Source: a virus
Length of the DNA stretch: 64,000 nt
Direction: 5' to 3' (one strand)
Virus record (IMG/VR): IMGVR_UViG_3300030329_006012
Location: 1-64,000 of that record
Part shown: positions 1 through 18,200 of the stretch, one piece after another
Position numbering within the stretch: the stretch's first letter is position 1
Layout: every line of letters begins with the position of its first letter
Position numbers and translations under genes: made by a program
Notes under the pieces: model-generated
Database searches by the model: none
Seen by the model: only the letters and a program-made list of their open reading frames with translations
Told to the model about the DNA's origin: nothing

Positions 1-612
1 GATTTTGATCCGGAACCGTTCTTTAAGAAATGTTTTGATAATGAAGTGTCTCTCCTCAAAGAAGATGTCCAGCCAACAGATAGTCAAAAGGCCGACTTCG
101 AAGCACAGGGCGTAGGAATTATACCAGAGGTAATCCCTGCCCTCAACGAGTACTTCGGAGAATTTAGTTTGGTTTCTTCGGAAGAAGAAATCCACGAAAA
201 GTTGGACTTTAAGACAGATGACAGTTTCACATTTAAAGGATATGTTGATTGCCTGATAAAGACTCCAGACGGAAAATATCACGTCATCGATTGGAAGTCT
301 TGCAGTTGGGGTTGGGATATGCGAAAGCGCACAGATCCGATGGTAACTTATCAGCTTACATATTACAAACATTTTCTTTCTGAAAAGCGGAACATTCCAA
401 AAGAAGATATTGAAACTCACTTTGCCCTTCTCAAGAGAACGGGGAAAAAAGATAGGGTTGAATTGTTCCGTGTTACGTCGGGAGAAAAAAAGACAAATAA
501 TGCCCTTAAACTTCTTGAGCAGTCGGTTTATAATATAGATAGACAAAATTATGTTAAGAACAGACTCTCCTGTTCTCGTTGCGATTTCAAGGGGACTGTT
601 CACTGCCCATAG
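1..612 (+). CDS. PD-(D/E)XK nuclease, Cas4/RecB-like (5' end outside window)
   Basis: Frame 1 is open from the first base, so the gene starts upstream; the first internal start is a GTG at 46. Numbering from that GTG, the PD-(D/E)XK core is visible: D68 in GYVD, D82 and K84 in IDWKS, then a QxxxY motif (Q103-Y107), the order seen in RecB, AddB and Cas4-type nucleases. The C-terminus carries three cysteines (C176, C179, C187), and one more lies in the upstream part (codon at 31-33). One N-terminal plus three C-terminal cysteines is the Fe-S cluster layout of AddB/Cas4 nucleases. The likely role is a DNA exonuclease in phage recombination or host DNA degradation. The family is fairly sure; the Fe-S cluster is inference. 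Confidence 0.75.
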   Translation, partial: DFDPEPFFKKCFDNEVSLLKEDVQPTDSQKADFEAQGVGIIPEVIPALNEYFGEFSLVSSEEEIHEKLDFKTDDSFTFKGYVDCLIKTPDGKYHVIDWKSCSWGWDMRKRTDPMVTYQLTYYKHFLSEKRNIPKEDIETHFALLKRTGKKDRVELFRVTSGEKKTNNALKLLEQSVYNIDRQNYVKNRLSCSRCDFKGTVHCP

Positions 613-620
613 GTGAACTT

Positions 621-1880
621 ATGAAGAAAAAGATTTTAACTTTATCCGACCACCCCTTCTCCCCTAGTGGTGTCGGCACACAAACAAAATACGTTATCGA
701 GGCCCTTCTCAAAACTGGAGAATATCAAATTATTTCTTTAGGCGGGGCCATAAAACATCAAAATTATCAACCCATTAAAACTGAGCAATGGGGAGAAGAT
801 TGGATTGTACACCCCGTCGACGGGTACGGAACACCAGATCTAGTCAGATCTGTTATTCGTTCTGAGAAGATCGACATGGTTTGGATAATGACCGACCCGC
901 GCTTTTGGGGTTGGCTCTGGGAGATCGACGACGAAATCCGCTCGGTGTGTCCCATAGTCTATTACCACGTGTGGGACAATTACCCATATCCCACCTACAA
1001 CAAGCAGCACTACCTTTCCAATGACGCCATCGCCACGATATCAAAGGTGACAGATGATATTGTAAAGACAGTAGCCCCATCAGTTGAGAGCAAGTATATT
1101 CCTCATGCAGTGAATGGAGACGTATTCAAGCCACTACCTGCAGAGAAAATTAAAGAATATAAAACTAGAACTCTAACTCCCACTGGCGGCGCAGACAAAT
1201 TTGTATTCTTCTGGAACAACCGAAACGCTCGCAGGAAACAAAGCGGCTCGCTGCTTTTTTGGTACAAGGACTTGCTGGATCGGATTGGCAAGGACAAGAC
1301 GTGCCTGATCATGCACACTGATATTACTGACGCTCACGGTCAAGATTTAAAAAAGATAATCGAAGAGCTGGACATGACAAATGGCGAAGTAATGTTTTCA
1401 ACAACTAAGGCGCCTGCAGAAGAGTTGGCGAATATGTATAATATGGCAGATTGTGTTATAAACGTCGCCGACGCTGAAGGCTTCGGCCTTGCAACACTAG
1501 AGGCCCTATCTTGTGAAACACCAATTATCGCAACCATGACTGGCGGACTTCAAGAACAAGTCACAGATGGTGAAAGTTTTTTCGGAATTGGAATCGAGCC
1601 GGCATCAAAGGCAATTATAGGATCTCAGGACATTCCTTGGATTTACGAAGACCGCTTAAATGGTGAAGATGTCGTCAATGCCATGCAGATGATGGTCGAA
1701 ATGCCATCAGAAGAACGCTTAGCACTTGCAGCAGCCGGCCGCCAACACGTACTCAAGAACTATAACTTTGAAGATTTTGAGAAGACGTGGGTAAGTTTTA
1801 TAAAAGAAGTTATGGACAAGAATGGTAGCTGGGAAGACAGAAAAAATTACAGCACGTGGACTTTGGAGGAGATTTCATGA
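621..1880 (+). CDS. GT-B glycosyltransferase, GT4-like
   Basis: A 419-aa protein starting at ATG 621, which follows an AGGTGA and begins directly with the N-terminal Rossmann strand (KKKILTLSDHPF) and a glycine-rich loop (SPSGVGTQ). The C-terminal domain has the GT4 nucleotide-sugar motif EGFGLATLE (E286 and E294, the E-x7-E pair) followed by a P-I-I-A-T-x-x-G-G segment. It should transfer a sugar from an NDP-sugar to an unknown acceptor in the cytoplasm. It is the first of three consecutive GT-B enzymes, and its stop overlaps the next start (ATGA). The acceptor could be a surface glycan, a virion protein or phage DNA; the sequence does not decide. Confidence 0.85.
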   Translation: MKKKILTLSDHPFSPSGVGTQTKYVIEALLKTGEYQIISLGGAIKHQNYQPIKTEQWGEDWIVHPVDGYGTPDLVRSVIRSEKIDMVWIMTDPRFWGWLWEIDDEIRSVCPIVYYHVWDNYPYPTYNKQHYLSNDAIATISKVTDDIVKTVAPSVESKYIPHAVNGDVFKPLPAEKIKEYKTRTLTPTGGADKFVFFWNNRNARRKQSGSLLFWYKDLLDRIGKDKTCLIMHTDITDAHGQDLKKIIEELDMTNGEVMFSTTKAPAEELANMYNMADCVINVADAEGFGLATLEALSCETPIIATMTGGLQEQVTDGESFFGIGIEPASKAIIGSQDIPWIYEDRLNGEDVVNAMQMMVEMPSEERLALAAAGRQHVLKNYNFEDFEKTWVSFIKEVMDKNGSWEDRKNYSTWTLEEIS

Positions 1881-3127
1881 AAAAGATAATTGTAAAAGGA
1901 CCAGCATTAAGTGCCTCCGGATATGGCGAGCATGCCCGTTTCATCTTGAGAGCCCTTAGAAAAAGAGAGGATGTTTTTGATATCTATCTTCACAATCTTT
2001 CGTGGGGCAAGACAGGCTGGCTATTCGAGGATTCCGAAGAACGCCGCTGGATTGACGAAATAATCAAGAAGACGGCAGTTTATCTTTCGCAGAACAAGGG
2101 GAGAGTCTTTTTTGACTTTTCTATGCAGGTTACGATCCCCAACGAGTTTGAGAAGATGGCAGCCGTCAACATTGGCGTAACTGCCGGCATTGAGACCACC
2201 AAAGTAGATCCATCATGGCTCCAGAAAGCAAACGAGATGGATAAGCTGATTGTTGTCTCAAGTCACGCAAAGCGCGGCTTTGAAGAGACCAAATATCCCC
2301 TCCTCAACGACCAACAGCAGCACGTGATGGATCTGGAATGTAACATCCCTGTCGAGGTTGTTGGCTATCCTGTGAGAAAGTTCGAAAAGGCAGATGTAGA
2401 TTTTAAATTTGATACAAAGTTTAACTTCTTATCTGTTGCTCTCTGGGGACAGAGAAAAAACATGGTAAAGACAGTGGAGAACTTTGTTGAAGAGTTCCGA
2501 TATGACGAAGATGTCGGATTAATTCTCAAAACAGCGTTCAGAAGTGGGTGCACCTATGATAAAGAAAATATGAGACTGTCATTGCAGAACATTTTGTCCC
2601 AATATCCTGATCGCAAGTGTAAGGTCTATCTTTTACACGGAAGACTTAGTGAGAGTGAATTGGCAACTCTCTATGAGCACGATTCTGTAAAGTGTATGCT
2701 TTCTCTTGCACATGGCGAAGGCTTTGGGCTTCCCTTGTTCGAGGCAGCTTCAATTGGGCTTCCCGTTGTTGCTACCGACTGGAGTGGCCAAACAGACTTT
2801 TTATACGCTCCCCAGAAAAACAAAAAAGGTAAAGAAAAGCTAAAAGGGCTTTTTGGAAAAGTGTCTTATGACTTACATAAGGTCCAGCAGGAGTCCGTAT
2901 GGGAAGGGGTCATAACCGCAGATTCAATGTGGGCCTACCCAAAGGACAATTCTGCAAAAGAGAAAATGAGAGATGTCTATAAAAACTATGATCTGGCGCT
3001 CAGTAAAGCAAAGAAGCTGAAGGAATATGTTGTAGTTGAGTTCGACTCAGAAAAGATGTATGATAAGTTGGTTTCTCACATCCCAATTACCCCAGAGGCC
3101 TCTAAAGACGAATTCATGGTGCTATAA
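1877..3127 (+). CDS. GT-B glycosyltransferase, GT4-like
   Basis: A 416-aa protein. The start is ATG 1877, seven codons inside the longest frame, because a strong GGAGGA lies just upstream and the ATG overlaps the previous stop. The N-terminus (KKIIVKGPALSASGYGEHAR) has the glycine loop of GT-B enzymes. The C-terminal half has HGEGFGLPLFEA and then GLPVVATDWSGQTDF, the donor-binding E-x7-E region and following loop. The central SVALWGQRKN stretch matches the second Rossmann domain. It is translationally coupled to the glycosyltransferases on both sides. The donor and acceptor sugars are unknown. Confidence 0.83.
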   Translation: MKKIIVKGPALSASGYGEHARFILRALRKREDVFDIYLHNLSWGKTGWLFEDSEERRWIDEIIKKTAVYLSQNKGRVFFDFSMQVTIPNEFEKMAAVNIGVTAGIETTKVDPSWLQKANEMDKLIVVSSHAKRGFEETKYPLLNDQQQHVMDLECNIPVEVVGYPVRKFEKADVDFKFDTKFNFLSVALWGQRKNMVKTVENFVEEFRYDEDVGLILKTAFRSGCTYDKENMRLSLQNILSQYPDRKCKVYLLHGRLSESELATLYEHDSVKCMLSLAHGEGFGLPLFEAASIGLPVVATDWSGQTDFLYAPQKNKKGKEKLKGLFGKVSYDLHKVQQESVWEGVITADSMWAYPKDNSAKEKMRDVYKNYDLALSKAKKLKEYVVVEFDSEKMYDKLVSHIPITPEASKDEFMVL

Positions 3128-4338
3128 TGAAGTTTATATACATAAGTCAATTTCACGATAACTGTGGGTACGGCTCTGCGGCCCGTGGATATCTAAAAGC
3201 TCTCAGCAACCATTTTTCCCCCGACGACCTCAAGATTCACAGCGTGTCATTGGAGAGAAGAAATAGTATTCTTAAAGACTCAGATGTGGAGCTGCTGGAC
3301 AAGTATTCTTTTAAAGATCTCGCTACAGCCGAAAAGTTTGCAGAAGAGGAAGAATATGTGGTGGTGTGGCATATGCCCCCTCCAATGGTGACGTTGGCAG
3401 AGAAGTATGCGCCTTTTGATCCAACTTGGAAGTGTATCAAGATAATGATGGAAAATGGTGTTCGGAATATTAATATTTCGGCATGGGAGGCAACAGGGAT
3501 CCCAAGAGCCTGGGAAGATATATATAAAAACATGAAAACCACAGATGTCATTGTTCCGAGTACATGGAATCAGGAAGTGTACAGCAAGAAAATAAAGACC
3601 CACTATGTGCCCCATATCATGGAAACGCCCCAGTATGAAACCATTCCAATGGATATGCCAGTGGATTTTGAAAATAATTTTGTTTTATTCTCTATGTCAC
3701 AGTGGTCTCATCGTAAGGGGTTTGACTCATTAATCAGAGCGTTCTGCATGGAGTTTGGAGAACAAGAAGATGCATATCTTATCATAAAGACTTATGGCGT
3801 CATCGCAGACTCTTATCCTGTTTCGCAGGAGGAGCAGGCAAGGTCGATAACGAACGAAGCCTTAAATTACAAAAATCAAGTGCAACTAGAGTACGAGAAA
3901 TCTCCAAAGTGTAAGCTCGTGGTAATTCCAAAGGTCTTGCCAGAGGAGAAGATATCTTGGCTCTATGAGAACTCCACCGCTTTTGCTCTTTTGACAAGGG
4001 GCGAAGGCTTCGGACTTACTGTTGCCGAAGCGACAATGTTGGGCCTCCCCGTTATTGTCCCCGATTCCGGTGGCCACACAGATTATTTACAAGAGTATGA
4101 TAATAAATACCTTACGGAAGGACATTGGACGCCATACTTCGGGCTTCCTGGTTATAGCTGCGAGATTAGTTGGTATGAACCAGACATCGCTTCAGCACGT
4201 TCAGCCCTTCGCCAGTGCTACAATGATTGGAAAGACGGAAAGATTTCTAGAAAACCCAATCCTGCGGTATCTTTTACTAAGGCGGAGGTGGGCAAAAAGT
4301 TTACGACCATCTTAATGGAGGTTGCACATGGCGGTTGA
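3127..4338 (+). CDS. GT-B glycosyltransferase, GT4-like
   Basis: A 403-aa protein, third of the tandem GT-B set. The start ATG overlaps the preceding stop (TAATG). The N-terminus KFIYISQFHDNCGYGSAARG resembles the loop of its two neighbours, so the three probably share ancestry. The C-terminal donor-binding motif is RGEGFGLTVAEA, followed by GLPVIVPDSGGHTDY. The middle part (FVLFSMSQWSHRKGFDSL) is the usual opening of the second Rossmann domain. It probably acts in sequence with its neighbours to build one oligosaccharide. Which linkage each makes cannot be read from the sequence. Confidence 0.83.
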   Translation: MKFIYISQFHDNCGYGSAARGYLKALSNHFSPDDLKIHSVSLERRNSILKDSDVELLDKYSFKDLATAEKFAEEEEYVVVWHMPPPMVTLAEKYAPFDPTWKCIKIMMENGVRNINISAWEATGIPRAWEDIYKNMKTTDVIVPSTWNQEVYSKKIKTHYVPHIMETPQYETIPMDMPVDFENNFVLFSMSQWSHRKGFDSLIRAFCMEFGEQEDAYLIIKTYGVIADSYPVSQEEQARSITNEALNYKNQVQLEYEKSPKCKLVVIPKVLPEEKISWLYENSTAFALLTRGEGFGLTVAEATMLGLPVIVPDSGGHTDYLQEYDNKYLTEGHWTPYFGLPGYSCEISWYEPDIASARSALRQCYNDWKDGKISRKPNPAVSFTKAEVGKKFTTILMEVAHGG

Positions 4339-5332
4339 TATAATTAAGGAAAAGGTTGCAGAAATAGATTTTGATACTTCTCATGGATTTAAGACTGCTA
4401 TTTGCGTGTTAGCATATAACCGGCCCGACTATTTTAAGGAAGTGGTGGAATCGATTGAGGCAAACACAGAGTCTCATGAGTTGCCCGTTTTCTTCTTTTT
4501 AGATGGGGGCCCCAACTCGACAACAAAAGAGAACATAGAAATTATAAAGTCTTGCAAAAAGATAAAAAACAAATTTGTAATCGCGAGAGAAGGAAATATC
4601 GGATGTTCGAAAAACCTAATTGACGCGAGGCGATTTGTATTTGATAAAATGGGTTTTGACTTGGCTTTTATATTTGAGGATGACCTCGTTGTATCTGAGA
4701 ATTATGTTCGTCTTCTTTTAAACGCCTATAAAGACCTCTCAGAAAAGTATGAGAATATTGGGATGTTGCAGGCTTGGAATTTGGATGAAGATGCCAATGT
4801 TGAGAACCCAGATGAAGAAAAGTTATCTTCTTTCAGGGTAATAGAGGACACTCACTTGTGGGGATACCTCATGCCACGAAAAGCGTGGGATCAAATCAAG
4901 GAGAGAATGTATGAGTATGAAAAAACATTTCATGATCCGCTCCCGAAGAATGGCATGGGCAAGATTGTTTTCGAGAGCAACTTAGGCGCTGTAAGAAAGT
5001 TCATGCATGAAAGTTGGAGTGAACCACCCTCTCAGGAAGGGAACCCCTCGATTATAGTTGACCCCTTTATTGAAAAAAAGAAGGGGAGATTCTTTGGCCC
5101 TAACGCACCCACTGGCCAAGATATTAATACGGAATTAAACTTATCTTCAAAGGGGCTTGTTCGCCTCGTTGCATGCCAGAACAGATCAAGATATATTGGC
5201 AAGATTGGCCTTCATGCGACGCAGGCCATATGGGATAAGTGGGGTTTTGGTACTATTAGGCTAGTCAATCACCGTAGCGACAAACTTGTTGAGAGGTTTT
5301 CTGTAGTGGGGGACACTGCGAGGAATGAGTAA
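4328..5332 (+). CDS. GT-A glycosyltransferase, GT2/GnT-I-like
   Basis: A 334-aa protein starting at ATG 4328 after GGAGG. The opening AICVLAYNRPDYFKEVV and the following FFFLDGGPNS are typical of the GT-A nucleotide-binding fold, and FIFEDDLVVSENY carries an acidic metal-binding cluster (E117, D118, D119) equivalent to the DxD motif. The spacing, with GNIGCSKNLI before EDD, is reminiscent of GnT-I-type and GT2 enzymes. It is a different fold class from the three preceding GT-B enzymes, so the cassette probably makes a branched or mixed glycan. Donor and acceptor are unknown. It overlaps both neighbours and belongs to the same transcriptional unit. Confidence 0.78.
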   Translation: MAVDIIKEKVAEIDFDTSHGFKTAICVLAYNRPDYFKEVVESIEANTESHELPVFFFLDGGPNSTTKENIEIIKSCKKIKNKFVIAREGNIGCSKNLIDARRFVFDKMGFDLAFIFEDDLVVSENYVRLLLNAYKDLSEKYENIGMLQAWNLDEDANVENPDEEKLSSFRVIEDTHLWGYLMPRKAWDQIKERMYEYEKTFHDPLPKNGMGKIVFESNLGAVRKFMHESWSEPPSQEGNPSIIVDPFIEKKKGRFFGPNAPTGQDINTELNLSSKGLVRLVACQNRSRYIGKIGLHATQAIWDKWGFGTIRLVNHRSDKLVERFSVVGDTARNE

Positions 5333-6035
5333 GATTATTGTGTGTGGCTCGAAAAGGTACGTGAATATCAAATTTGACAAACTGGTAGACTCTTTCGATG
5401 AGATAGTTAGAACCAACTTGTTGCTTCCTGATGATGGGTATGGCCTCCGAAACCCGACGATACAGCCTATCAATTGCCATATGTGGGCAAAATATAAAAA
5501 GAAGGTGCCCTTATCGGGGTGGAAAGAGTATATAAAAAGGGGCGTGACAGAAGATTATATAAAGAGGTTTAAGAAATTTATTGATTCTGCCACTGATACG
5601 AAGTTTGTAACTTATACTCGCAATAACACGTCAAAGATGAAGAATTTTTGTAAAAAGAAGAATATTAATGCAAATATAAGGAAAGAAATACGTAATGGCC
5701 TCTCTTATGTTGCAGAGTGCCTATCTTCTGGCAAAAAACCTTTTCTTATTGGATTTTCTCTTTCAAAGGAGGACTACGAATTTAGTCAGGTCCACGGAGA
5801 TAGGAGAAGAGCAGATCGAAAAATTAATGACGCCCATCATTCTAGGGGTTCCGAAATAGAGTTGATAACAGAGCTCCACAACAAGGGATACATTGATGCC
5901 TCCTTTTGTTGTATCTGCGACGAAAAAGAGCTGCGGTTTTGCACAAAAGTCATAACTCCCACCCCCAGATCCCTTGAGTTGGCGAAGAAGCTTCTTGCTA
6001 ATGACCAGTGCGCCAACAGCGAGGATAAAGTATGA
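5325..6035 (+). CDS. GT29-like sialyltransferase-type protein
   Basis: A 236-aa protein. The N-terminus (IIVCGSKRY, then LVDSFDEIVRTN) resembles the large sialylmotif of GT29 enzymes, in which a VVGNS-type strand is followed by the I-D-S-F-D-x-V-x-R-x-N segment. Near the C-terminus, HSRGSE gives an H-x4-E pattern like sialylmotif VS. GT29 enzymes use CMP-activated nonulosonic acids, which fits the cytidylyltransferase and KdsA-type synthase in the same operon. I infer that it transfers CMP-KDO or a CMP-nonulosonate to a glycan. It lacks any signal peptide or membrane anchor, so it should be cytoplasmic. The assignment rests on motif similarity only. Confidence 0.55.
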   Translation: MSKIIVCGSKRYVNIKFDKLVDSFDEIVRTNLLLPDDGYGLRNPTIQPINCHMWAKYKKKVPLSGWKEYIKRGVTEDYIKRFKKFIDSATDTKFVTYTRNNTSKMKNFCKKKNINANIRKEIRNGLSYVAECLSSGKKPFLIGFSLSKEDYEFSQVHGDRRRADRKINDAHHSRGSEIELITELHNKGYIDASFCCICDEKELRFCTKVITPTPRSLELAKKLLANDQCANSEDKV

Positions 6036-6958
6036 TGGAAAAATTTAACAACAAGCCTGTGTTTCCCGTTTCACCTTCTTACGATCCGGATGGGAGCCTA
6101 AGCACCACCGGTAGTATAAAGTATGTGAAGTATCTGGAATCTAACGGCGCTGAAGTAATCATGACCACGGCAGGCACCTCTCAGTTCAACTTGTTATCTC
6201 TGGCAGAAATCCGAGAACTGAACATTTCTGTGTGTAATAATTTTAAGAAAATTAAAATAGTGGGCATCCCGGCACTATCAAAAAGAGATCTGGTCGCTGA
6301 GATAAAGTTCTACGACAAGCATATTGAAGACAAGAAAGACGTTGTTCTGCTGCTTCTGTATCCTGAGAGGTTTTATGATAATGAAACGGTGTCTCGCTAT
6401 TTTTCCGATGTAGAGAAAATTTCTGACTTCAACCTCATGATTCACGGTAAGGAGATAAGAAAAGGTACCGGTGGAATTAAAGAATATGATGCAGATCTGT
6501 TAAATCACATATTGGCCAAAACAAGTAAAATTATAGGCATGAAGGAAGAGTGTGGAAGTTTTGAATTGGGCTACGATACCATTAGAAAGCTGCCAGAAAA
6601 CTTTATAACGATAGTTGCAGGAAAGAGCATTAGGAGATACGAATTTCTTAAAAAAGCTGGCGCAACCACCTTTCTTTCTGGTGTAGGGAGCTTTTATCCA
6701 CAGTTTGAGGTGGAATACTTTTCTTCAAAGAATAGGCAGGATTTCCTAGATATTGAAAATAACCTTTTTGACACATTTATGTCAATTGGTTGGCACAAGA
6801 GCATGAGAAATGCTATAAGGTACATGAAGGTGGGGTGTGAACACGATAGGCAACCATTTCCTACCTTCTCCCCGCAGGAGAAGAGGGAAATAGTAAGCAG
6901 ACTTAGAGAAGTCGAGGAATTTTTGAGTTCCGTCGAGGAGGCCCACGATGAAGCATGA
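6032..6958 (+). CDS. DapA/NanA-family class I aldolase
   Basis: A 308-aa protein of the usual length for the dihydrodipicolinate synthase / N-acetylneuraminate lyase family. Visible family features are TTAGTSQF (the TT-G pyruvate-binding loop), LLYPERFY (position of the catalytic Tyr) and IIGMKEE with K171 as the candidate Schiff-base lysine, followed by a GATTFLSG turn before the C-terminal helices. The enzymes condense or cleave pyruvate and an aldehyde. Beside CMP-sugar synthetase and KdsA homologs, a role in ulosonic acid metabolism is more likely than lysine synthesis, but the substrate is not fixed by the sequence. The start ATG overlaps the upstream stop; a second ATG at 6035 is also possible. 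Confidence 0.72.
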   Translation: MMEKFNNKPVFPVSPSYDPDGSLSTTGSIKYVKYLESNGAEVIMTTAGTSQFNLLSLAEIRELNISVCNNFKKIKIVGIPALSKRDLVAEIKFYDKHIEDKKDVVLLLLYPERFYDNETVSRYFSDVEKISDFNLMIHGKEIRKGTGGIKEYDADLLNHILAKTSKIIGMKEECGSFELGYDTIRKLPENFITIVAGKSIRRYEFLKKAGATTFLSGVGSFYPQFEVEYFSSKNRQDFLDIENNLFDTFMSIGWHKSMRNAIRYMKVGCEHDRQPFPTFSPQEKREIVSRLREVEEFLSSVEEAHDEA

Positions 6959-7604
6959 TAAGTTATCCACAGTGTGGTCGAATTCGACACGCAAATGGCG
7001 CCATTTGGACTATACCGACGCCGTGTCGAAAAATTATGAATTTCTCTCTGAGTGCACGAGAGAGTTTGATAAGGACGAAATTGAAGAAGTTGTAGATTGG
7101 GGCCCCGGAGGAGGGTGGCTATCAAAGTTCTTTGTAGACTGTGATATCCACCTAGTAGATATCGTCTCCTCTAATTTGGAAGAGTCCGCCGAGAACGTCA
7201 GGGCCACAGCAAGGTCGGTAGAGGCACATCACATCAAAGACATCGAAGAGGCCAATACACTGGGTTCATTATCTCCCGATATTCTAATGGCGTTTTCAGT
7301 TATATACCATTTCCCGACAATTGAATACTGGAAGTCGGTGTCTGGCTTGTGGAATCAGATGTCTCCTCGCTATATTGTGGGACGCACTTTCCTGACCAAT
7401 GGCGATTCATGGCAACGCTCGGAGAAGAAATACGCAGTAGGGAGAAATTATCTTCGCGGAATCGTTTTAAATAAAGAGGAATTTATAAATTCTTTCCCTG
7501 ACTATAAGATAATATATGAAAAGAAGATAAGCCAAAAGTATGATAGGCACGGCGCCCCCGCCGATCAATATTCATATGTTTTTCTCTTTGAGAGGAAAGC
7601 GTGA
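6948..7604 (+). CDS. class I SAM-dependent methyltransferase
   Basis: A 218-aa protein. The SAM-binding motif I is VVDWGPGGGWLSKFF, followed by an acidic strand end (IHLVDIV) and by the ILMAFSVIYHFP segment at the motif IV position. These are typical of class I methyltransferases acting on small molecules or sugars. It overlaps the aldolase gene by 11 bases and the next gene by four, so it is part of the glycan operon. O- or N-methylation of a sugar residue is the simplest role; no substrate-specific motif is recognisable. Confidence 0.68.
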   Translation: MKHDKLSTVWSNSTRKWRHLDYTDAVSKNYEFLSECTREFDKDEIEEVVDWGPGGGWLSKFFVDCDIHLVDIVSSNLEESAENVRATARSVEAHHIKDIEEANTLGSLSPDILMAFSVIYHFPTIEYWKSVSGLWNQMSPRYIVGRTFLTNGDSWQRSEKKYAVGRNYLRGIVLNKEEFINSFPDYKIIYEKKISQKYDRHGAPADQYSYVFLFERKA

Positions 7605-8293
7605 AGATAGCAGTCATACCAGCCCGTGCCGGATCTACTAGGTTGAAAAACAAAAACACACACCCGCTGAAGGGCAAGCCACTTATTAGGTGGGTGACAG
7701 AAGCAGTTATAGAGTCGCGGTGTTTTGATAAGGTGGTCATCTCAACCGACGGTGATGATATTTTTGATGCTGTGGCAGACTTGAATGTTACTCGCCACAA
7801 ACGACCAGGCTCCCACGCCACGGTCAGCGCAACGGCACTTGATGCGATGCTAGACTATATGCAAAATAACCCTCCCTTGGGGGCGGAAGCGGAAGATGCA
7901 ATTTTTGCTTATTTTCTCCCCACTTGTCCGTTTGTATCTCCTGTCGACATTAAGCGCGGTATGGAACTACTGGAGTGTAGTGGGTCTAGATGCGACACCG
8001 TAGTCAGTATGACCCAGATCCCAGAAACAATTCAGTTGGCGTGTGTCATGAAGAACGATTGGGTTCTTCCCGTTTTTGATAACCTAGAGTGTGGACTAAC
8101 TAATAGCAAATTTATTAAAAGATACTTTAAACCATCTGGGGCATTCTATATGGGACGTTGGGATAAGGTATTACAAAATAAAAACTTCTTTAAAGGAAAC
8201 GTAAAGGGTGTTATAATACCACCAGAGAGGTCAGTTGATATAAATAATATTAATGATATTAGGTTTGCAGAATCTATGCCGGAGGGAATATGA
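7601..8293 (+). CDS. CMP-ulosonate cytidylyltransferase, NeuA/KdsB-like
   Basis: A 230-aa protein with GTG start overlapping the preceding stop. The N-terminus KIAVIPARAGSTRLKNKN is the nucleotide-binding P-A-R-x-G-S-x-R signature of acylneuraminate and KDO cytidylyltransferases, followed by GKPLIRWV and VVISTDGDDI. Length matches NeuA. The enzyme couples CTP to a nonulosonic acid or KDO, giving the CMP-sugar used by GT29-type or KDO transferases. The phrase pattern is closer to NeuA than to KdsB, yet the nearby KdsA homolog points to KDO; both remain possible. A TGTTATAAT (8209-8217) lies in its 3' part and could be a weak internal promoter. Confidence 0.82.
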   Translation: MKIAVIPARAGSTRLKNKNTHPLKGKPLIRWVTEAVIESRCFDKVVISTDGDDIFDAVADLNVTRHKRPGSHATVSATALDAMLDYMQNNPPLGAEAEDAIFAYFLPTCPFVSPVDIKRGMELLECSGSRCDTVVSMTQIPETIQLACVMKNDWVLPVFDNLECGLTNSKFIKRYFKPSGAFYMGRWDKVLQNKNFFKGNVKGVIIPPERSVDINNINDIRFAESMPEGI

Positions 8294-9021
8294 AAGTTCA
8301 TAAAAAATGGCTCACAAAAAATAAAAAAGATCAAACCAAAGAAAATAAGGATAAGTTTGTTTTTACAAATAATCACGGCTGTGCATTTTTGAAAGCTGAT
8401 TTTATGTCATCCCTAGATTCGAATTCAAAACTGAAAATGATGGAGATAGGCTGTCAGGAAGGGAACGTCTCGATTAAATTGATAAAAGAATATCTTCGAC
8501 ACAGTGACAGCAGGATGTATTGTCTTGATCTGTTTCCTCCTGACAAGCTCGGCATGGAGAGAAATTTTGATCACAACATCAGCTTGTTGGGCGATGATGC
8601 AAGCAAGGTAATCAAGTGTTCGGGCCCCTCATGGAAGAGTTTAAGAAATTTAAGTACAGAAGAAAACTTTGAAAGTTTTGATCTGATCTATGTTGATGGT
8701 TGGCATGGAGCACACGGTGTGCTGGACGATGCTGTCTTGTCTTGGAAGTTATTAAAGGTGGGGGGCTTTTTAGTGTTTGATGATTATTCTTGGTCCAAGG
8801 CCGGCATGAAAGATTTCCGCAAACCTAAACTAGCTATTGATTCTTTTATAAAAATCTTTAAGATTTTCTTTAATGAAACTAAAGCAGGCAATCAAAAGTG
8901 TTTTAAAAAGACAGTTTCAAACGACATGGAAATCAGACGCTGCCAAGAGAAGGGCGGCTCTGATGAGCTTTCGTCAAAATACTTTGTAGATTTAAAAGAG
9001 GGGGATAGTTATGAGCAATAA
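8290..9021 (+). CDS. class I SAM-dependent methyltransferase, Methyltransf_24-like
   Basis: A 243-aa protein starting with ATG overlapping the upstream stop. The lysine-rich first 25 residues precede a SAM-binding strand and loop, MMEIGCQEGNVSIKLI, then MYCLDLFPP (motif II), FDLIYVDGWHGAHGV (motif IV, with the D-G-x-H pattern of the Methyltransf_24 type) and GGFLVFDDYSWSK. This subgroup is common in glycan clusters and methylates sugars or related small molecules. The substrate is unknown. It is the second methyltransferase in the cassette, so two methyl groups or two different sites may be modified. Confidence 0.75.
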   Translation: MKVHKKWLTKNKKDQTKENKDKFVFTNNHGCAFLKADFMSSLDSNSKLKMMEIGCQEGNVSIKLIKEYLRHSDSRMYCLDLFPPDKLGMERNFDHNISLLGDDASKVIKCSGPSWKSLRNLSTEENFESFDLIYVDGWHGAHGVLDDAVLSWKLLKVGGFLVFDDYSWSKAGMKDFRKPKLAIDSFIKIFKIFFNETKAGNQKCFKKTVSNDMEIRRCQEKGGSDELSSKYFVDLKEGDSYEQ

Positions 9022-9808
9022 AGTTTGGATACTAGGGCCCTGTTCAATCGAGAATGAGGAATTATATTTTTCAACATACGAAAAACTAGCCTCCTTCATG
9101 GGAGATAGGGACTGGTACTATAAGGCATCATTTGATAAGGCAAATAGAACATCTCTCACCGGCGGCCGAGGACCAGGACTAGAAAAGAGTATAGAAATCT
9201 TTGAGGATCTAAAAGATAAACACCCAGAAGCAAAGCTTCTCACGGATGTTCACGAAACATGGCAAGTTGAAAAACTTGCACACGTCATCGACTGCGTTCA
9301 AATCCCGGCATTTCTCTGTAGGCAAACAGACTTGATTGTTGAGTGCGCGAAAAGTTTCAGCAAGGTGAATATTAAAAAAGGGCAATGGATAGGCCCAAAC
9401 AATCTAATAAAATCGGTTGACAAGGTAAAAAATGTTAACCCTGAATGTGAGGCGTGGATCTGTGATCGTGGAACAAACTTTGGATATAATGACTTGTTTG
9501 TTAATTTTGGCATTGTCGATGAACTCAAAAAGCATTATGATAAGGTCTTAATAGATTGCACACACTCAATACAGAGATCGAGAGCTATATATGGCACACA
9601 GGGAGACCGCCGACTGGCAGAGAGGTACCTTCTCTCTTCTGATGTCTTTGGATACGATGGTGTTTTTGCAGAGGTCCACCCAGACCCACCATCAGCCGTC
9701 TCTGACGGAGACTGCCAGATCTACTTAGACAAAATCGAAGGCTTGATAAGAAGGTCGGAAACCATTTCGCGTGTAGTTGCCGAGAAAGATCGCGCCCGTG
9801 AGGAATAA
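9011..9808 (+). CDS. kdsA: 3-deoxy-D-manno-octulosonate 8-phosphate synthase
   Basis: A 265-aa protein, close to the usual KdsA length. Diagnostic segments are GPCSIEN near the N-terminus, KASFDKANRTS, RGPGLEKSIEI, LTDVHE, VIDCVQIPAFLCRQTDLIV and VNIKKGQW, all in the KdsA order. The reaction condenses phosphoenolpyruvate and arabinose 5-phosphate to KDO-8-phosphate in the cytoplasm. The cysteine in GPCSIEN sits at the metal-ligand position of metal-dependent KdsA. No KdsD isomerase is seen here, so arabinose 5-phosphate would come from the host. It overlaps the methyltransferase upstream and the sulfotransferase-like gene downstream. Of all genes in the cassette this assignment is the surest. 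Confidence 0.9.
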   Translation: MSNKVWILGPCSIENEELYFSTYEKLASFMGDRDWYYKASFDKANRTSLTGGRGPGLEKSIEIFEDLKDKHPEAKLLTDVHETWQVEKLAHVIDCVQIPAFLCRQTDLIVECAKSFSKVNIKKGQWIGPNNLIKSVDKVKNVNPECEAWICDRGTNFGYNDLFVNFGIVDELKKHYDKVLIDCTHSIQRSRAIYGTQGDRRLAERYLLSSDVFGYDGVFAEVHPDPPSAVSDGDCQIYLDKIEGLIRRSETISRVVAEKDRAREE

Positions 9809-10367
9809 GATTCATATCGGATACCACAAGTGTGGGTCGACTTTTTTGCAGAAGCTGATTTTTCCTTGTGTGCCGACCTACGAGGGTAGACTTTATGGAA
9901 AAGGTCATGCTAGGTGCAATTTCAGGAAGTTTTACAAAAAAGGCTTCAAAGAAACTTGCCGAGCGATAGAGAAGCACTACTCCAATAGGGAGGGCGTGTT
10001 TATATCTCATGAGGGATTTTCTAGCCTAAGACACCAGCATTTGTTTGAGATTTTAGGTGATGACTGGGATGTTTTGGTGGTGAAAAGAAATTTGCACGAT
10101 CTCATACAAAGCCGTCTCCGCCACAAACCGCACGACTTTTTTCTCTATGACAAAATTAAGCGCGGCACCATCGATGCGGAGGTGAAGCGTTTTTACGATC
10201 CGGAAAGTCTAAAGAAAGGGTTCAGCCACCTTACGGTATTATCCTTCGAAAAGCTTTTTTCAGGGGAAAAGGAAGAGCTTGATAGGTTATCTAAATATCT
10301 GGGCCACGACATAGGGCCCATTTTCCGAGAAAATATTAGTCGAAGAAAGAACTCAAGAAAGAAATAA
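9798..10367 (+). CDS. sulfotransferase-like protein
   Basis: A 189-aa protein if translation starts at GTG 9798, which overlaps the kdsA stop; a TTG at 9777 would add seven residues. The N-terminus HIGYHKCGSTFLQKLIF looks like the PAPS 5'-phosphosulfate loop of sulfotransferases (a H-K-x-G-S/T-T-x-L-Q pattern). The VVKRNLHDLIQSRL segment matches the 3'-phosphate-binding R and S positions. It is short for the family but contains both motifs. It would move sulfate from PAPS to a sugar hydroxyl. As a cytoplasmic enzyme in a glycan operon it may sulfate the glycan made by the preceding genes. Confidence 0.6.
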   Translation: MRNKIHIGYHKCGSTFLQKLIFPCVPTYEGRLYGKGHARCNFRKFYKKGFKETCRAIEKHYSNREGVFISHEGFSSLRHQHLFEILGDDWDVLVVKRNLHDLIQSRLRHKPHDFFLYDKIKRGTIDAEVKRFYDPESLKKGFSHLTVLSFEKLFSGEKEELDRLSKYLGHDIGPIFRENISRRKNSRKK

Positions 10368-10373
10368 ACCATT

Positions 10374-11042
10374 ATGAGGGCTGAAGATATAAGTGAAAAA
10401 TTACAAGAAGATGGGTATGTGGTACTCCCCGACTATCTGAAGGGTAATCCCATGAAAGAACTTTTTTTTGAAGAGGTGGGGGACATTTTATCTAATTCAT
10501 CTGCCGACAAAGGATATAAGTTTGGAAAAGCAGAAAGAATTGGGTCTTTGAATAAGAATTCCAAGAATAGAATAGGAATGTCACATTGTTTTACAACCCC
10601 CCTTCTCGAAGAAGTTCGGAGGGGAAAATTTAAGGCAGATTGCAAATTCACTGAGATTTTTGTGACTCATGAGTTTACTGACGAGAATGGGCTGGAGAGG
10701 AACGGGTATTTACACTTTGATCGTATTTGGACTTTTAAGTATTTTTACTACATAACAGATACGAGAAGTCAGGCTGATGGGCCACTAACTGTTGTCCCCG
10801 GCTCCCATGTTTTGGGAAAGAAGCTGAGAAAGGCTCAGCTCGCCACTGGTGCCCCCTATAAAGAACAAAAAAATAGAATAGAAATTGATTTCCCACTTGT
10901 ATATGAAGAAATTAAATCAAAGAAGACACCGCTTTACGGGCCTGCAGGCACTCTTGTCATATTTGATACCGATGTTTTTCATATGGGCGGGACAGTAACT
11001 GCCGGCCACGAGAGGAAAGTGTGCCGACTGCACATGAGGTAG
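10374..11042 (+). CDS. PhyH-family Fe(II)/2-oxoglutarate dioxygenase
   Basis: A 222-aa protein. The metal triad is visible as H-x-D in YLHFDRIW and a distal His in FDTDVFHMGG, with a downstream R (RKVCRLH) that would bind 2-oxoglutarate. The DGPLTVVPGSH segment between them is typical of phytanoyl-CoA dioxygenase-like proteins. The enzyme should hydroxylate or otherwise oxidise a small molecule or sugar. The gene is not overlapped by its neighbours (six-base gap upstream), yet lies at the end of the same run. Marine phages often carry such genes, and the substrate is rarely known. Confidence 0.72.
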   Translation: MRAEDISEKLQEDGYVVLPDYLKGNPMKELFFEEVGDILSNSSADKGYKFGKAERIGSLNKNSKNRIGMSHCFTTPLLEEVRRGKFKADCKFTEIFVTHEFTDENGLERNGYLHFDRIWTFKYFYYITDTRSQADGPLTVVPGSHVLGKKLRKAQLATGAPYKEQKNRIEIDFPLVYEEIKSKKTPLYGPAGTLVIFDTDVFHMGGTVTAGHERKVCRLHMR

Positions 11043-11084
11043 AGGAGAATAATTATGAAATTATCAGATCAAGCAGTGGGATCA
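11043..11084 (+). repeat. direct repeat copy 1 (duplicated gene start)
   Basis: These 42 bases match 11433-11474 at 40 of 42 positions, offset by 390 bases. Each copy contains a ribosome binding site (AGGAGAATAA), the ATG and the first ten codons of the gene at 11445. The two differences are T/A just before the ATG and G/A in the eighth codon. The pair brackets the small HAD phosphatase gene. Confidence 0.9.
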
Positions 11085-11102
11085 CAGATATGTCCCCTCT
11101 AA
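11055..11102 (+). pseudogene. truncated duplicate of the 11445 gene start
   Basis: A 15-codon frame (MKLSDQAVGSQICPL, stop TAA) begins with the same residues as the 65-aa protein at 11445 (MKLSDQAMGS) and then diverges after codon ten. It keeps the same ribosome binding site, so it may still be translated. It is best read as a broken leftover of the host-phage gene after the phosphatase gene was inserted, not as a functional peptide. A leader-peptide role cannot be excluded. Confidence 0.75.
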
Positions 11103-11139
11103 TGTGGCAAAAAAAACTACAGAGAAGACTTGGGGAGTA

Positions 11140-11442
11140 ATGATCATATACGTTGACATCGATGAGACAATTTGTTTTTCTCCGGAAAGTAGAGATTATT
11201 CTATGGCTACCCCCATAGAAAAAAACATTAACAAAATAAACAAAATGTATGATAATGGAGATACAATAGTCTACTGGACAGCTCGTGGGACTCTCACTGG
11301 CAAAGATTGGAGAGGGGTGACAGAAGGGCAGTTTAAGAGGTGGGGTGTAAAATATCACGAACTGAAATTCGGAAAGCCGGCCTATGACCTGTTTATAGAT
11401 GACAAGAATATAAGTTCAGAAGAATTTTTTAAAGGAGAATAA
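11140..11442 (+). CDS. small HAD-type phosphatase-like protein
   Basis: A 100-aa protein from ATG 11140, chosen because GGGGAG lies five bases upstream and the HAD nucleophile motif then falls at the N-terminus (YVDIDETI, a DxDxT). Later segments are YWTARG (the motif II Thr/Ser region) and FIDDKN (the DD of motif IV). This compact arrangement is that of small capsule-type HAD phosphatases found in phages and glycan clusters. Its place after the KdsA cassette allows the speculation that it dephosphorylates a sugar phosphate, as KdsC does, but it is much shorter than KdsC. The flanking 42-bp duplication shows that it arrived by insertion. Confidence 0.72.
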   Translation: MIIYVDIDETICFSPESRDYSMATPIEKNINKINKMYDNGDTIVYWTARGTLTGKDWRGVTEGQFKRWGVKYHELKFGKPAYDLFIDDKNISSEEFFKGE

Positions 11443-11474
11443 TAATGAAATTATCAGATCAAGCAATGGGATCA
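11433..11474 (+). repeat. direct repeat copy 2 (start of the intact gene)
   Basis: This is the second copy of the repeat at 11043-11084, with two mismatches. It contains the functional ribosome binding site and start codon of the 65-aa gene at 11445. Its first ten bases overlap the last codons and stop of the phosphatase gene. Confidence 0.9.
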
Positions 11475-15293: not shown

Positions 15294-18200
15294 ATGGCCC
15301 AGCAAGACCCAAACAAAAACACCAATTTAGAACAACAGTTTGAAGACTCCTCAGACGTAGGATCCGAGCAAAGATCCGAAGACTTTGCCGCTCAAGCGAA
15401 GTACGCCTCCGGCACAAGAGAGCTCGTGCTCCAAACTCATGGCGATGTTCTGGGTGCATATGATCAAATTGGAGAGGGGACAGCTTATCCTCCCGATCAT
15501 CTATTCTTGATAAACCTTAATCCGATTTTTAAAGAAGAAAAGTTAAACAACGACTTCTTGATGAGTAAGAAAGAGTATTTCTACGAAGATATGCTCGCCA
15601 CCGCAGAGACGACTTCATTTGATAGGTTCTACTCTAAAAAGACGGAACATATTAAGAAACTGTTTAGGTTTTTCCAAAGAAGACTTGATGATGATTTAAG
15701 TTCTAAAAAGAGAAACATTAAGACTAACGGCATCGATTTCGAAAAACACATGTCAATGATAGAGTCGGTTCCGAACGAGATCAAGAGAGCAGCCCTAAAG
15801 GCAAACCCTCTACTGGGAGACCTTATGAGGGAGTCTGAAAACAAGTACCAGACCTCAATCGTAATGACAGCCCCCGTGGGAACGTACAGCACCTTTATGG
15901 GTGTTTATTTGTTTTTCCCAAATGCAGATTTGAGGGAGCTCCTGTCTGACGTTGGCCTCGATGAAGGCGCCGACAAGATCAGCAGCATTTCTGCGGACTA
16001 TGTGAGATTCTTTATTCCAGGCAGCTTCTTTCAGAACGATTCCCCCTTCAAGAGCCTGTTTTTCCAATTCAACGGATACATGCAGAAACTAGATCTTCTT
16101 GCTGATCTTGGGAGGGAAGACTTAACAAGAGCAGAGAATCACATGAACTGTGGGTTCACACCCGGCGCCGCAGATTATCCGCCACTACTTGATTATTTCT
16201 CCTTTTCCCATTCTTTTCACCAGCCAACTCCGATAACGGTAGAGGAAAACCCGGTGGAGAACAGCAAATGGAGAGAGAACGCTGCACAGGCAGTAGATGC
16301 ATTCACAGGGGCAATGGACGATGCAACCAAATCGCTTACGAGGTCACTGTCTCAGTTTATTTCCGATCCATACACTGTCGTCGATGGCGACAAAATGACC
16401 TTGACCACCAAGAATTATACCGCTGGCTCTGTCTTCGGAGCCAAGCTCTCCTATGATGGTGACAAAAAATCACCACTCATGGAGCTCTCAAGGGGCTGGC
16501 TGGATCAGGCAGAGCTCAGCGCCGCCGCAGACCGGACGTCCTTAATTACGTTTCAAAGCCGCTCAGGACCCGAAGTCAATGCAGATGCTGTAATTGAAAT
16601 AAATCGAGAAGACGAGGCCCTGAAAAAGAAGCTCGTTGCTAATTTTAAAAAGACTGGCAACGCGCTCGAAGAAGGAATGGTCATCCAGATACCAAAGCAG
16701 TCTGGTACAAAAAACAAGTGGAAAAATCTCCTCAATTCCGTAGAGATGGAGGAGATGGATCCAGAGCGCCTCAAGGAAATTTGGAACGAAGCTTTTCTAG
16801 ATCCTTTCCTTGCAAGAATATGTCCGGCCACCCTTCCAAAAAGGGTTCTTGAGTGTTTACTTCCGGGCAACTGCCGCGATCTCATGAAATACATTGGCCT
16901 ATGGCGTACCCGCGATTTCTTAGAAGAGTTTATTGCTTTTGACCTATTTTCTGATACCAAAAGTCTGGTCACTGCACTGACGAAGTGGGATGAGCTCGTT
17001 CAAGAGCAGTACAGCTTTAAAGCAGTACAGTTTAATGGCAACGGTTTTCTGAAGTCGGGAACTACCGACTCTAAGGAGGTTTTCCCAAACGGTGCAGATA
17101 GCGTTTCCGTATCTCTGCAGGTGAAAGTAAAGCCGGAGAACAAGAAAACAAACGACAAGAAGGTAAAGTCGATATTCTCCCAGAAGGGAGTGTTCGAGAT
17201 AAAGAAGGGGATATTGGGAGATATAAAAGTTGTTCTCTATTCTCAGGACGGAAAGAAAGTAACTTATACAAACTTTGGAGAATCCACAATTGATTTTGAT
17301 GACGATTACTGGCACCAGCTTGGTTTTTCCTGGGCCGGTAATACTGGAAACTTCACGCTATATTTCGATGGCAGAGAGGTGAAGACCAAGAAGGACAGTG
17401 GCGACACATTCACAGGCCCATTGGCATCCCCCGATAGTACGCGGTTTCTTGTTGCTTCCGAGTCCCACGAAGAGAGCAGGAAGGGCTTTGCAGGACAACT
17501 TGATGAAATTTGTGTATTTGATAAGACCCTCTCAGCGGCTCAGTGGAAATCGCTTGGTAAGATTGATAGCGATGTAAATTTAAACACAGCAAGGCTCAAA
17601 TTGAATGTCAAGGCTTGGTGGCGCATGGGAGATGCCGTTGATGATCGCACTCCTGCTTCTGGCGTCACCGGAAAGATCGTTGACCTCGCTGGAGGTAAAG
17701 ATCTCTCTTTCGGAAACCCCAGCGAAGGATCCACCAAAATAATTGTTGCTCACCTGTTTAAAGAGAAGGACGAAAACCGCTTTATCGATATAATAAATCG
17801 AGAAACAGATGTTGAGAAGGTTTGCGATACAATCATGGAATACATAATGGAGCTTGTGGAGGTCTCCTTTGATCCGGAAAAAATAAAGAAAGATATACTG
17901 GACCAGATAAACATACCTAATTTCTCTGGGGATCCCCACAAACAAGTGAAGCTCATAATCAAAAAGACAATTGTAGAGCAGTTGCTGAAAATGGTAGCCA
18001 CCTTTCTAATGAAGATGATTGCCGAGCTGCTAAACTGCGATAGTTGGCGTGGAATGGTCAAGGCTCTTGTGAAAGGAACAGTTAATTTTGATGCCAACAC
18101 TTTTGGGTCCGCATTTGTGGAAAACAACCCGGTTGCAGAGTTCATCAATGCAACTCAAGATCCGGAAGAGTGGTCAAAGATATTAAAAGACACGGAGAGC

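Follow-up and report, generated by a model that had tools for sequence, protein, structure and literature searches.

A conserved phage gene cassette predicted to synthesise, activate and transfer an ulosonic acid

We analysed the first 64 kb (hereafter the window) of the IMG/VR virus record IMGVR_UViG_3300030329_006012, which is 190,225 bases long, and found at 5325-9808 six overlapping genes that quite probably form a phage pathway making an ulosonic acid, activating it as a cytidine monophosphate (CMP) derivative and transferring it to a glycan. The same gene families stand together in other phages, and between syntenic phages the sugar synthase is replaced while the activating and transferring enzymes are retained. 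Terminase, portal, baseplate wedge, primase and a late-sigma-like protein mark a T4-like tailed phage; the nearest relatives of its terminase are those of Flavobacterium phage immuto (47% identity) and Microcystis phage Mel-JY01 (44%).

Six overlapping genes encode a synthase, a CMP-sugar synthetase and a predicted transferase

Six open reading frames (ORFs) on the + strand, with neighbours overlapping by 4-11 nucleotides (nt), encode in order a GT29-type, sialyltransferase-like protein predicted to be a CMP-ulosonate transferase (5325-6035), a DapA-superfamily protein (6032-6958), a class I S-adenosylmethionine methyltransferase-like protein designated MT1 (6948-7604), a CMP-sugar synthetase of the NeuA/PseF type (7601-8293), a methyltransferase of the Methyltransf_24 family (8290-9021), and KdsA, a member of the metal-dependent type of the 3-deoxy-D-manno-octulosonic acid (KDO)-8-phosphate synthase family (9011-9808). 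The coordinates and overlaps agree with a preliminary description of this DNA, which had proposed an operon for a KDO-like sugar. The co-directional array is in fact larger: it spans 579-11442, with the six-gene set as its middle part, and contains in addition three GT4 and one GT2-like glycosyltransferase genes, a weak sulfotransferase-like ORF, a PhyH oxygenase and a HAD phosphatase.

Curated models support in part the assignment of KdsA to the KDO-8-phosphate (KDO8P) synthase family. The protein reached the cut-off of the curated NCBIfam model NF003543 (E=7e-75, 251.5 bits, cut-off 242) and found Aquifex KDO8P synthase as its best PDB match (E=2e-54), while staying under two other curated KDO8P-synthase cut-offs, TIGR01362 (242 versus 314 bits) and NF009109. 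The alignment with the Aquifex enzyme and the invariant columns of the family showed that the window protein keeps the KANR motif (K43-A-N-R46) and C11, H185, E221 and D232, the last four aligned with Cys11, His185, Glu222 and Asp233, which we take to be the metal ligands of Aquifex KDO8P synthase. The loop behind the conserved THS-Q is unlike that of Aquifex KdsA. Viral KdsA is widespread, occurring in at least 548 IMG/VR stretches, and in the KdsA tree the window sequence belongs to a well-supported group of 35, of which 28 have DapA; this group is separate from the KdsB-type cassettes. Among other viral loci, L018 and L089 have KdsA right behind a transaldolase-like gene, with neither CMP synthetase nor GT29, perhaps reflecting another use of KdsA, and Synechococcus phage S-SCSM2R carries KdsA and KdsB in mutually opposite orientation near psbA/psbD, with no GT29 recognised alongside. 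The KdsA records labelled Acinetobacter phage MD-2021a (CAKLQF020000008.1, CAKLQH020000043.1) were set aside: the record opened contains pyrG-kdsA-eno and housekeeping genes and looks like mislabelled bacterial DNA.

The CMP-sugar synthetase matched PF02348 (E=3e-23), and the best PDB match of its family profile was the NeuA structure 9ftb (E=4e-44). Its best NCBIfam model was PseF, aligned over the full length but below the cut-off (E=9e-31, 107 bits versus 205.7), and the KdsB equivalog TIGR00466 gave 33.7 bits versus 155.2 and matched the first 60 residues alone. Judged by these profiles, the synthetase is NeuA/PseF-like, unlike KdsB, and assignable to neither NeuA nor PseF proper. The earlier label of a NeuA/KdsB-type cytidylyltransferase is therefore kept in its NeuA part and dropped in its KdsB part.

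The transferase is divergent. Taken singly, it was identified by none of the libraries scanned (Pfam, PHROG, NCBIfam) and had no PF00777 match of its own in Pfam at E up to 0.1; single-sequence queries retrieved nothing from the phage collection or IMG/VR, where alignments had to be used instead. Relatives with 38-41% identity occur in the same cassette. Several cassette GT29s match PF00777 over the cut-off (E 6e-20 to 2e-30). When scored with a profile built from the remaining cassette GT29s, its own clade left out, the window protein reached E=4.6e-12, compared with 0.23 for the best of 2,000 shuffles, which confirms the GT29 likeness at the level of sequence. Among 30 sequences, the sialylmotif residues G125 and G143 and the VS-type pair H172-x4-E177 are invariant and R29 and D22 nearly so; the L-motif has diverged in the window clade. 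Structure predictions, here and below, were built on alignments of 22-27 sequences. For the transferase model (predicted local distance difference test score, pLDDT, 89.7), the top 19 PDB fold matches were all GT29/GT42 sialyltransferases, which points to that fold, though weakly (best E=1.2e-3, template modelling score, TM, 0.33-0.49). For GT29-type phage proteins that lack an annotation or a PHROG family, the pathway predicts a function as ulosonyl transferases. One occurs in a cultured phage, Stenotrophomonas phage DLP_6, where the 'hypothetical protein' at 116909-117700 matches PF00777 over the cut-off (E=1e-7) and adjoins a nucleotide-sugar transferase; a 484-kb uncultured phage (LR756508.1) has four GT29-type genes, NeuB and a small HAD gene inside 6 kb.

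The cassette is conserved across phages

We gathered relatives from three starting points, KdsA, DapA and GT29, and grouped them into clusters at 95% identity, which gave 28 DapA clusters including the window. Neighbours were counted in fixed flanks with home-made profiles and a simple ORF caller, and absences in relatives are soft because IMG/VR contigs are fragments. Two architectures emerged: type A, that of the window, consists of [HAD]-GT29-DapA-KdsA-[methyltransferase/PhyH/sulfotransferase]-NeuA in variable order, and type B, KdsB-KdsA-x-GT29, couples GT29 with a KDO-type synthetase. DapA clusters contained a NeuA-type synthetase in 26/28 cases, GT29 in 21/28, PhyH in 16/28 and the small HAD gene in 14/28; KdsA was present in 27/28, a count that is partly ascertained because the clusters were drawn with both DapA and KdsA queries. 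When KdsA clusters were divided by the presence of a CMP synthetase, GT29 was found in 30 of the 42 with it versus 5 of the 28 without.

Starting from GT29, we found a synthase condensing phosphoenolpyruvate (PEP) to an ulosonate in 27 of 31 clusters and a CMP synthetase likewise in 27. In the fetched flanks KdsA was present in 16 clusters, NeuB in 11, both in none and neither in four, a mutual exclusivity with p=1.6e-5, and DapA stood beside KdsA in 16/16 clusters versus beside NeuB in 4/11 (p=3.7e-4); both p-values are indicative only, since the clusters are related to each other. On the GT29 tree the NeuB label changes at least six times on well-supported branches. Because these neighbourhoods are conserved in dozens of distinct phage contigs, whichever of the three genes is taken first, and because of the synthase swap described below, we regard the cassette as one functional unit.

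Two variants of these loci deserve mention. A 462-kb uncultured phage (LR756500.1) encodes within ~10 kb KdsA, a synthetase of the KdsB type, a KdsD-like protein with a SIS domain and a GT29-like protein; perhaps this jumbo phage possesses a KDO pathway that is nearly complete. In two contigs (L046, 8611-10509; L135, 6630-8483) phage NeuB and a xylose-isomerase-like TIM barrel (AP_endonuc_2) form a fusion protein, which may combine two sugar-forming steps.

The synthase is exchanged between syntenic phages

Contigs L180 and L182 are largely collinear with L179 and L181 for tens of kilobases, with identities between the two pairs of 89% for GT29, 89% for the neighbouring methyltransferase, 88.5% for a CmcI-type methyltransferase, 86% for the CMP synthetase and 76% for PhyH. 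Between the GT29 and CmcI genes, L180 has [DapA-KdsA] (2812-4471), whereas L179 has [NeuB - a different DapA - APH-family kinase] (2762-6353). Whole-contig searches showed that each contig carries its own synthase alone. The breakpoints coincide with gene borders, indicating that a DapA-family protein and a PEP-condensing synthase were exchanged jointly against a constant background of activation and transfer. That KdsA and DapA are swapped out together suggests that they act on one product line. The compared stretch differs in one further gene: L180 has a methyltransferase-like gene where L179 has a sulfotransferase-like gene.

A DapA-fold protein with an altered active site

The DapA-like protein matched the Pfam family DHDPS weakly (E=1e-3), and its AlphaFold model (pLDDT 94.7) matched DHDPS and 2-keto-3-deoxygluconate (KDG) aldolase structures with E ~1e-12 and TM 0.73-0.79. 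On the strength of this model it is confidently placed as a TIM barrel of the DHDPS/KDG-aldolase/N-acetylneuraminate lyase superfamily. The Schiff-base residue Lys171 is invariant in 27 sequences and is followed by Glu-Glu. In the alignments, the catalytic Tyr of the YNxPxR region is replaced by His138 in nearly all members and by Asp in one, and the second DapA type, that of the NeuB module, likewise keeps the Lys and has His at the Tyr position. Since His occupies the position of the catalytic Tyr, the protein is no ordinary NanA-type lyase. For both DapA types the dehydratase KdgD was the top-ranking NCBIfam model, far under its cut-off.

The ulosonic acid is itself a substituted pyruvate, and a Schiff-base enzyme could therefore act on it at C3/C4 by dehydration or epimerisation; pyruvate aldol chemistry is the alternative. 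The window-type subfamily is almost purely viral in the data searched, with one genome of an 84,980-species collection containing it and none of 298 other genomes sampled from the phylum of that genome, at E up to 1e-20. This sole cellular genome found, an alphaproteobacterial metagenome-assembled genome (WLXB01000064.1), has DapA between NeuA and NeuB, with PhyH near and no adjacent KdsA, which makes the locus a nonulosonic-acid cluster.

Proposed pathway and alternative explanations

From the gene families and their associations we infer the following reactions. KdsA would join PEP and a host aldose phosphate, most likely arabinose-5-phosphate, into a KDO-type ulosonate phosphate, from which a phosphatase, either the small HAD protein or one of the host, would take off the phosphate. 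The DapA-fold protein would form a Schiff base with a 2-keto acid, either tailoring the ulosonate at C3/C4 or supplying a precursor by pyruvate aldol chemistry. The NeuA/PseF-type enzyme would then make the CMP-ulosonate, and the GT29-type enzyme would move the ulosonate to an acceptor that probably comes from the GT4/GT2 enzymes or the host, with decoration by the methyltransferases, PhyH and perhaps the sulfotransferase. In related phages [DapA-KdsA] is exchanged for [NeuB-DapA-kinase], with the synthetase and GT29 kept constant. The likely purpose, so far as the genes suggest one, is alteration of the host surface, which would block rival phages, or of the virion; phages with a swappable synthesis gene probably change which sugars the host surface or the phage particle displays. 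With regard to DNA hypermodification as a destination, no gene of the thymidylate-synthase/hydroxymethylase family was found in the record, which is weak negative evidence.

Given KdsA and the KdsB-type sister cassettes, KDO can reasonably be assumed as the default sugar; the NeuA-type synthetase and the swaps make other ulosonates possible. Of the KDO-like operon originally proposed, the synthesis, CMP activation and transfer of an ulosonate are well supported by the conserved neighbourhoods and the swap; KDO in the narrow sense is not settled, because the synthetase is NeuA/PseF-like, the search for KdsD was negative and GT29s of this type also occur beside NeuB.

Several points weigh against the proposed pathway. 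It leaves the role of DapA unexplained, the synthetase reaches no NCBIfam equivalog cut-off, and the window GT29 is divergent, with no Pfam match and fold-match TM below 0.5; to our knowledge, no phage GT29 has been shown to have sialyltransferase activity. Other genes stand between the six-gene set and the HAD gene, 1.3 kb further downstream, and the family of the latter is common among phages. No SIS-domain gene (KdsD, arabinose-5-phosphate isomerase) was found in the 190-kb record, which is perhaps incomplete, and the host may supply this step; a plain KDO operon with all steps encoded by the phage was rejected as a reading on account of this lack in the record.

That the product is an ulosonic acid other than KDO, either a nine-carbon nonulosonate or an unusual C7/C8 acid, is a real possibility, although we incline somewhat against it. 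The viral KdsA clade would then have changed its sugar substrate, and its ability to replace NeuB would be explained. The resemblance of the synthetase to NeuA/PseF more than to KdsB is in keeping with such a shift, as are the divergent loop behind THS-Q and the interchange of KdsA and NeuB, which the GT29 tree shows six or more times and which is also seen beside a GT29 and a synthetase that are 86-89% identical. However, tolerance of two donors by GT29 and the synthetase could explain the interchange as well, and KdsA passes one curated KDO8P-synthase cut-off and retains KANR and the metal ligands. A related question concerns DapA, which might be a pyruvate aldolase making a parallel second ulosonic acid, or might cleave host ulosonic acids in salvage, leaving the product of KdsA untouched. 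Its fold and Schiff-base Lys would suit such a role, and the KdsA cassette L090 lacks DapA and carries an HpcH/HpaI pyruvate aldolase; we nevertheless hold it less likely than not, given the His at the catalytic Tyr position in nearly all members, shared by the DapA that the NeuB module brings in, the preference of DapA for KdsA over NeuB as a neighbour, and the joint replacement of KdsA and DapA.

It is decidedly improbable that these enzymes boost or copy the host KDO supply for ordinary lipopolysaccharide (LPS) during infection, with the GT29-type protein acting on an unrelated sugar. While kdsA and kdsB are common marine viral genes (PMC10653327) and many viral KdsA loci have no nearby CMP synthetase (the 28 clusters of which five have GT29), the KdsA clade of the window is accompanied by DapA, a dedicated CMP synthetase and GT29, and GT29 is tied to ulosonate synthases in 27/31 clusters. 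A chance pile-up of accessory sugar genes sharing no pathway is scarcely credible: glycosyltransferases abound in the region and the genes are ordered differently among phages, yet the associations hold from any of the three starting genes, and the GT29-first scan together with the exclusivity of KdsA and NeuB largely refutes it. Beyond the proposed pathway, it can be speculated, with a probability we put as fairly low, that the exchangeable modules, [DapA-KdsA] or [NeuB-DapA-kinase], placed on a constant synthetase and GT29, switch the ulosonic acids of host or virion, and that the His-containing DapA performs a new tailoring step leading to an undescribed sugar.

Relation to known systems

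Several elements are already known: phage polysaccharide clusters, the 'lock-out' idea, viral kdsA and kdsB, the alteration of nonulosonic acid by a prophage, and the link between a plant GT29 and KDO. The bacterial KDO pathway comprises KdsD, KdsA, KdsC, KdsB and WaaA. The phage cassette resembles it in the KdsA family, CMP activation and a dedicated transferase, and through the KdsB-type synthetases of sister phage cassettes, and differs in having no KdsD found, a NeuA/PseF-type synthetase, a GT29-type in place of a WaaA-type transferase, and the extra DapA protein. With bacterial nonulosonic (sialic, pseudaminic, legionaminic) acid clusters it shares the NeuA/PseF-type synthetase and a sialyltransferase-family transferase, and NeuB occurs in sister phage cassettes; the window, in contrast, has KdsA, and no NeuB was found anywhere in its IMG/VR record.

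Surface-polysaccharide ('LPS') clusters are known in T4-like cyanophages and jumbo phages, and a marine T4-like virus of 179 kb that encodes NeuA, KdsA, Gmd, WcaG, ManC and WaaG has been reported, with 'lock-out' proposed as the purpose (PMC7824862, PMC5332604). As these clusters are described in the available parts of those reports, the array is like them in belonging to a large tailed phage and in having several glycosyltransferases, sugar-modifying enzymes, oxygenases and HAD phosphatases, and unlike them in GT29, DapA, the interchange of NeuB and KdsA, and the defined synthesis-activation-transfer cassette. The plant GT29 MGP2/RCKT1 is required for KDO on the pectin rhamnogalacturonan II (PMC12168206), a precedent for a GT29 using CMP-KDO. 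The phage proteins belong to the same family as the plant (MGP2/RCKT1, SIA2; PMC12168206) and bacterial (PMC5811610) GT29s but are short (~190-280 amino acids, aa) and far diverged; the main text of the bacterial GT29 survey (PMC5811610) never mentions 'virus' or 'phage'. The prophage genes epaA-epaB of Acinetobacter baumannii alter an ulosonic acid on the host surface (PMC12053666). They too are phage genes aimed at an ulosonic acid, with a host-surface destination only a possibility for the window cassette; there the sugar is made by the host, whereas the window phage bears genes for synthesis, activation and transfer. In the open-licence literature we found no description of GT29 cassettes in phages, of their DapA partner or of an interchange between KdsA and NeuB, which is weak evidence of absence.

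Phage 'LPS genes' are usually itemised singly as auxiliary metabolic genes; here they form a defined pathway whose gene set recurs and can be tested. The swap amounts to a natural experiment in which the sugar synthase is changed and the activating and transferring enzymes are retained, and the cassette draws attention to a Schiff-base enzyme of ulosonic-acid metabolism that awaits characterisation. Should the sugar reach the host surface, this would be a phage-driven change of a negatively charged surface sugar.

Neighbouring genes and other features of the window

Upstream of the six genes on the + strand lie three overlapping GT4 glycosyltransferase genes (579-1880, 1856-3127 and 3127-4338; Pfam Glycos_transf_1, E 1e-13, 6e-9 and 1e-13), probably the acceptor-building section of the array, and a GT2/GNT-I-like glycosyltransferase gene (4322-5332), whose Glycos_transf_2-type Pfam matches (E ~5e-5) are slightly under the cut-offs. 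Two methyltransferases had been described within the set: the one at 8290-9021 matches PF13578 (E=5e-12, over the cut-off), and MT1, relatives of which recur across related cassettes, is weakly methyltransferase-like (Pfam E 0.02-0.09). Downstream, again on the + strand, follow a sulfotransferase-like ORF (9777-10367; PF00685, E=0.009, under the cut-off) with an uncertain start codon, similar ORFs being found in some cassettes, and a PhyH-family 2-oxoglutarate oxygenase (10374-11042; PF05721, E=6e-8, over the cut-off), a possible sugar hydroxylase. A PDB sequence search for PhyH as a KdoO-type KDO hydroxylase yielded chance matches alone.

The small HAD phosphatase (11104-11442, +; PHROG 1238, E=8e-27), whose true start may be internal, is a candidate ulosonate-phosphate phosphatase. 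It matched EcbF-BcbF in NCBIfam under the cut-off (E=7e-6) and the capsule biosynthesis protein 9iqw in the PDB (E=3e-10), a weak match to a capsule phosphatase family and not to KdsC. The gene is flanked by a 45-nt direct repeat (11040-11084 and 11430-11474), with copies of 93% identity at a distance of 390 nt; the repeat takes in the start of the next gene, at 11445, as if the HAD gene had been inserted, leaving a truncated copy of that start.

Promoter and terminator scans gave yields close to the shuffled expectation. The sequence TATAAATA is enriched in the window (7 occurrences versus 1.8 expected), and its sole copy in the cassette falls within the synthetase gene. Two very long ORFs, at 15294-22040 (2,248 aa) and 32463-40022 (2,519 aa), lie amid the tail and baseplate genes.

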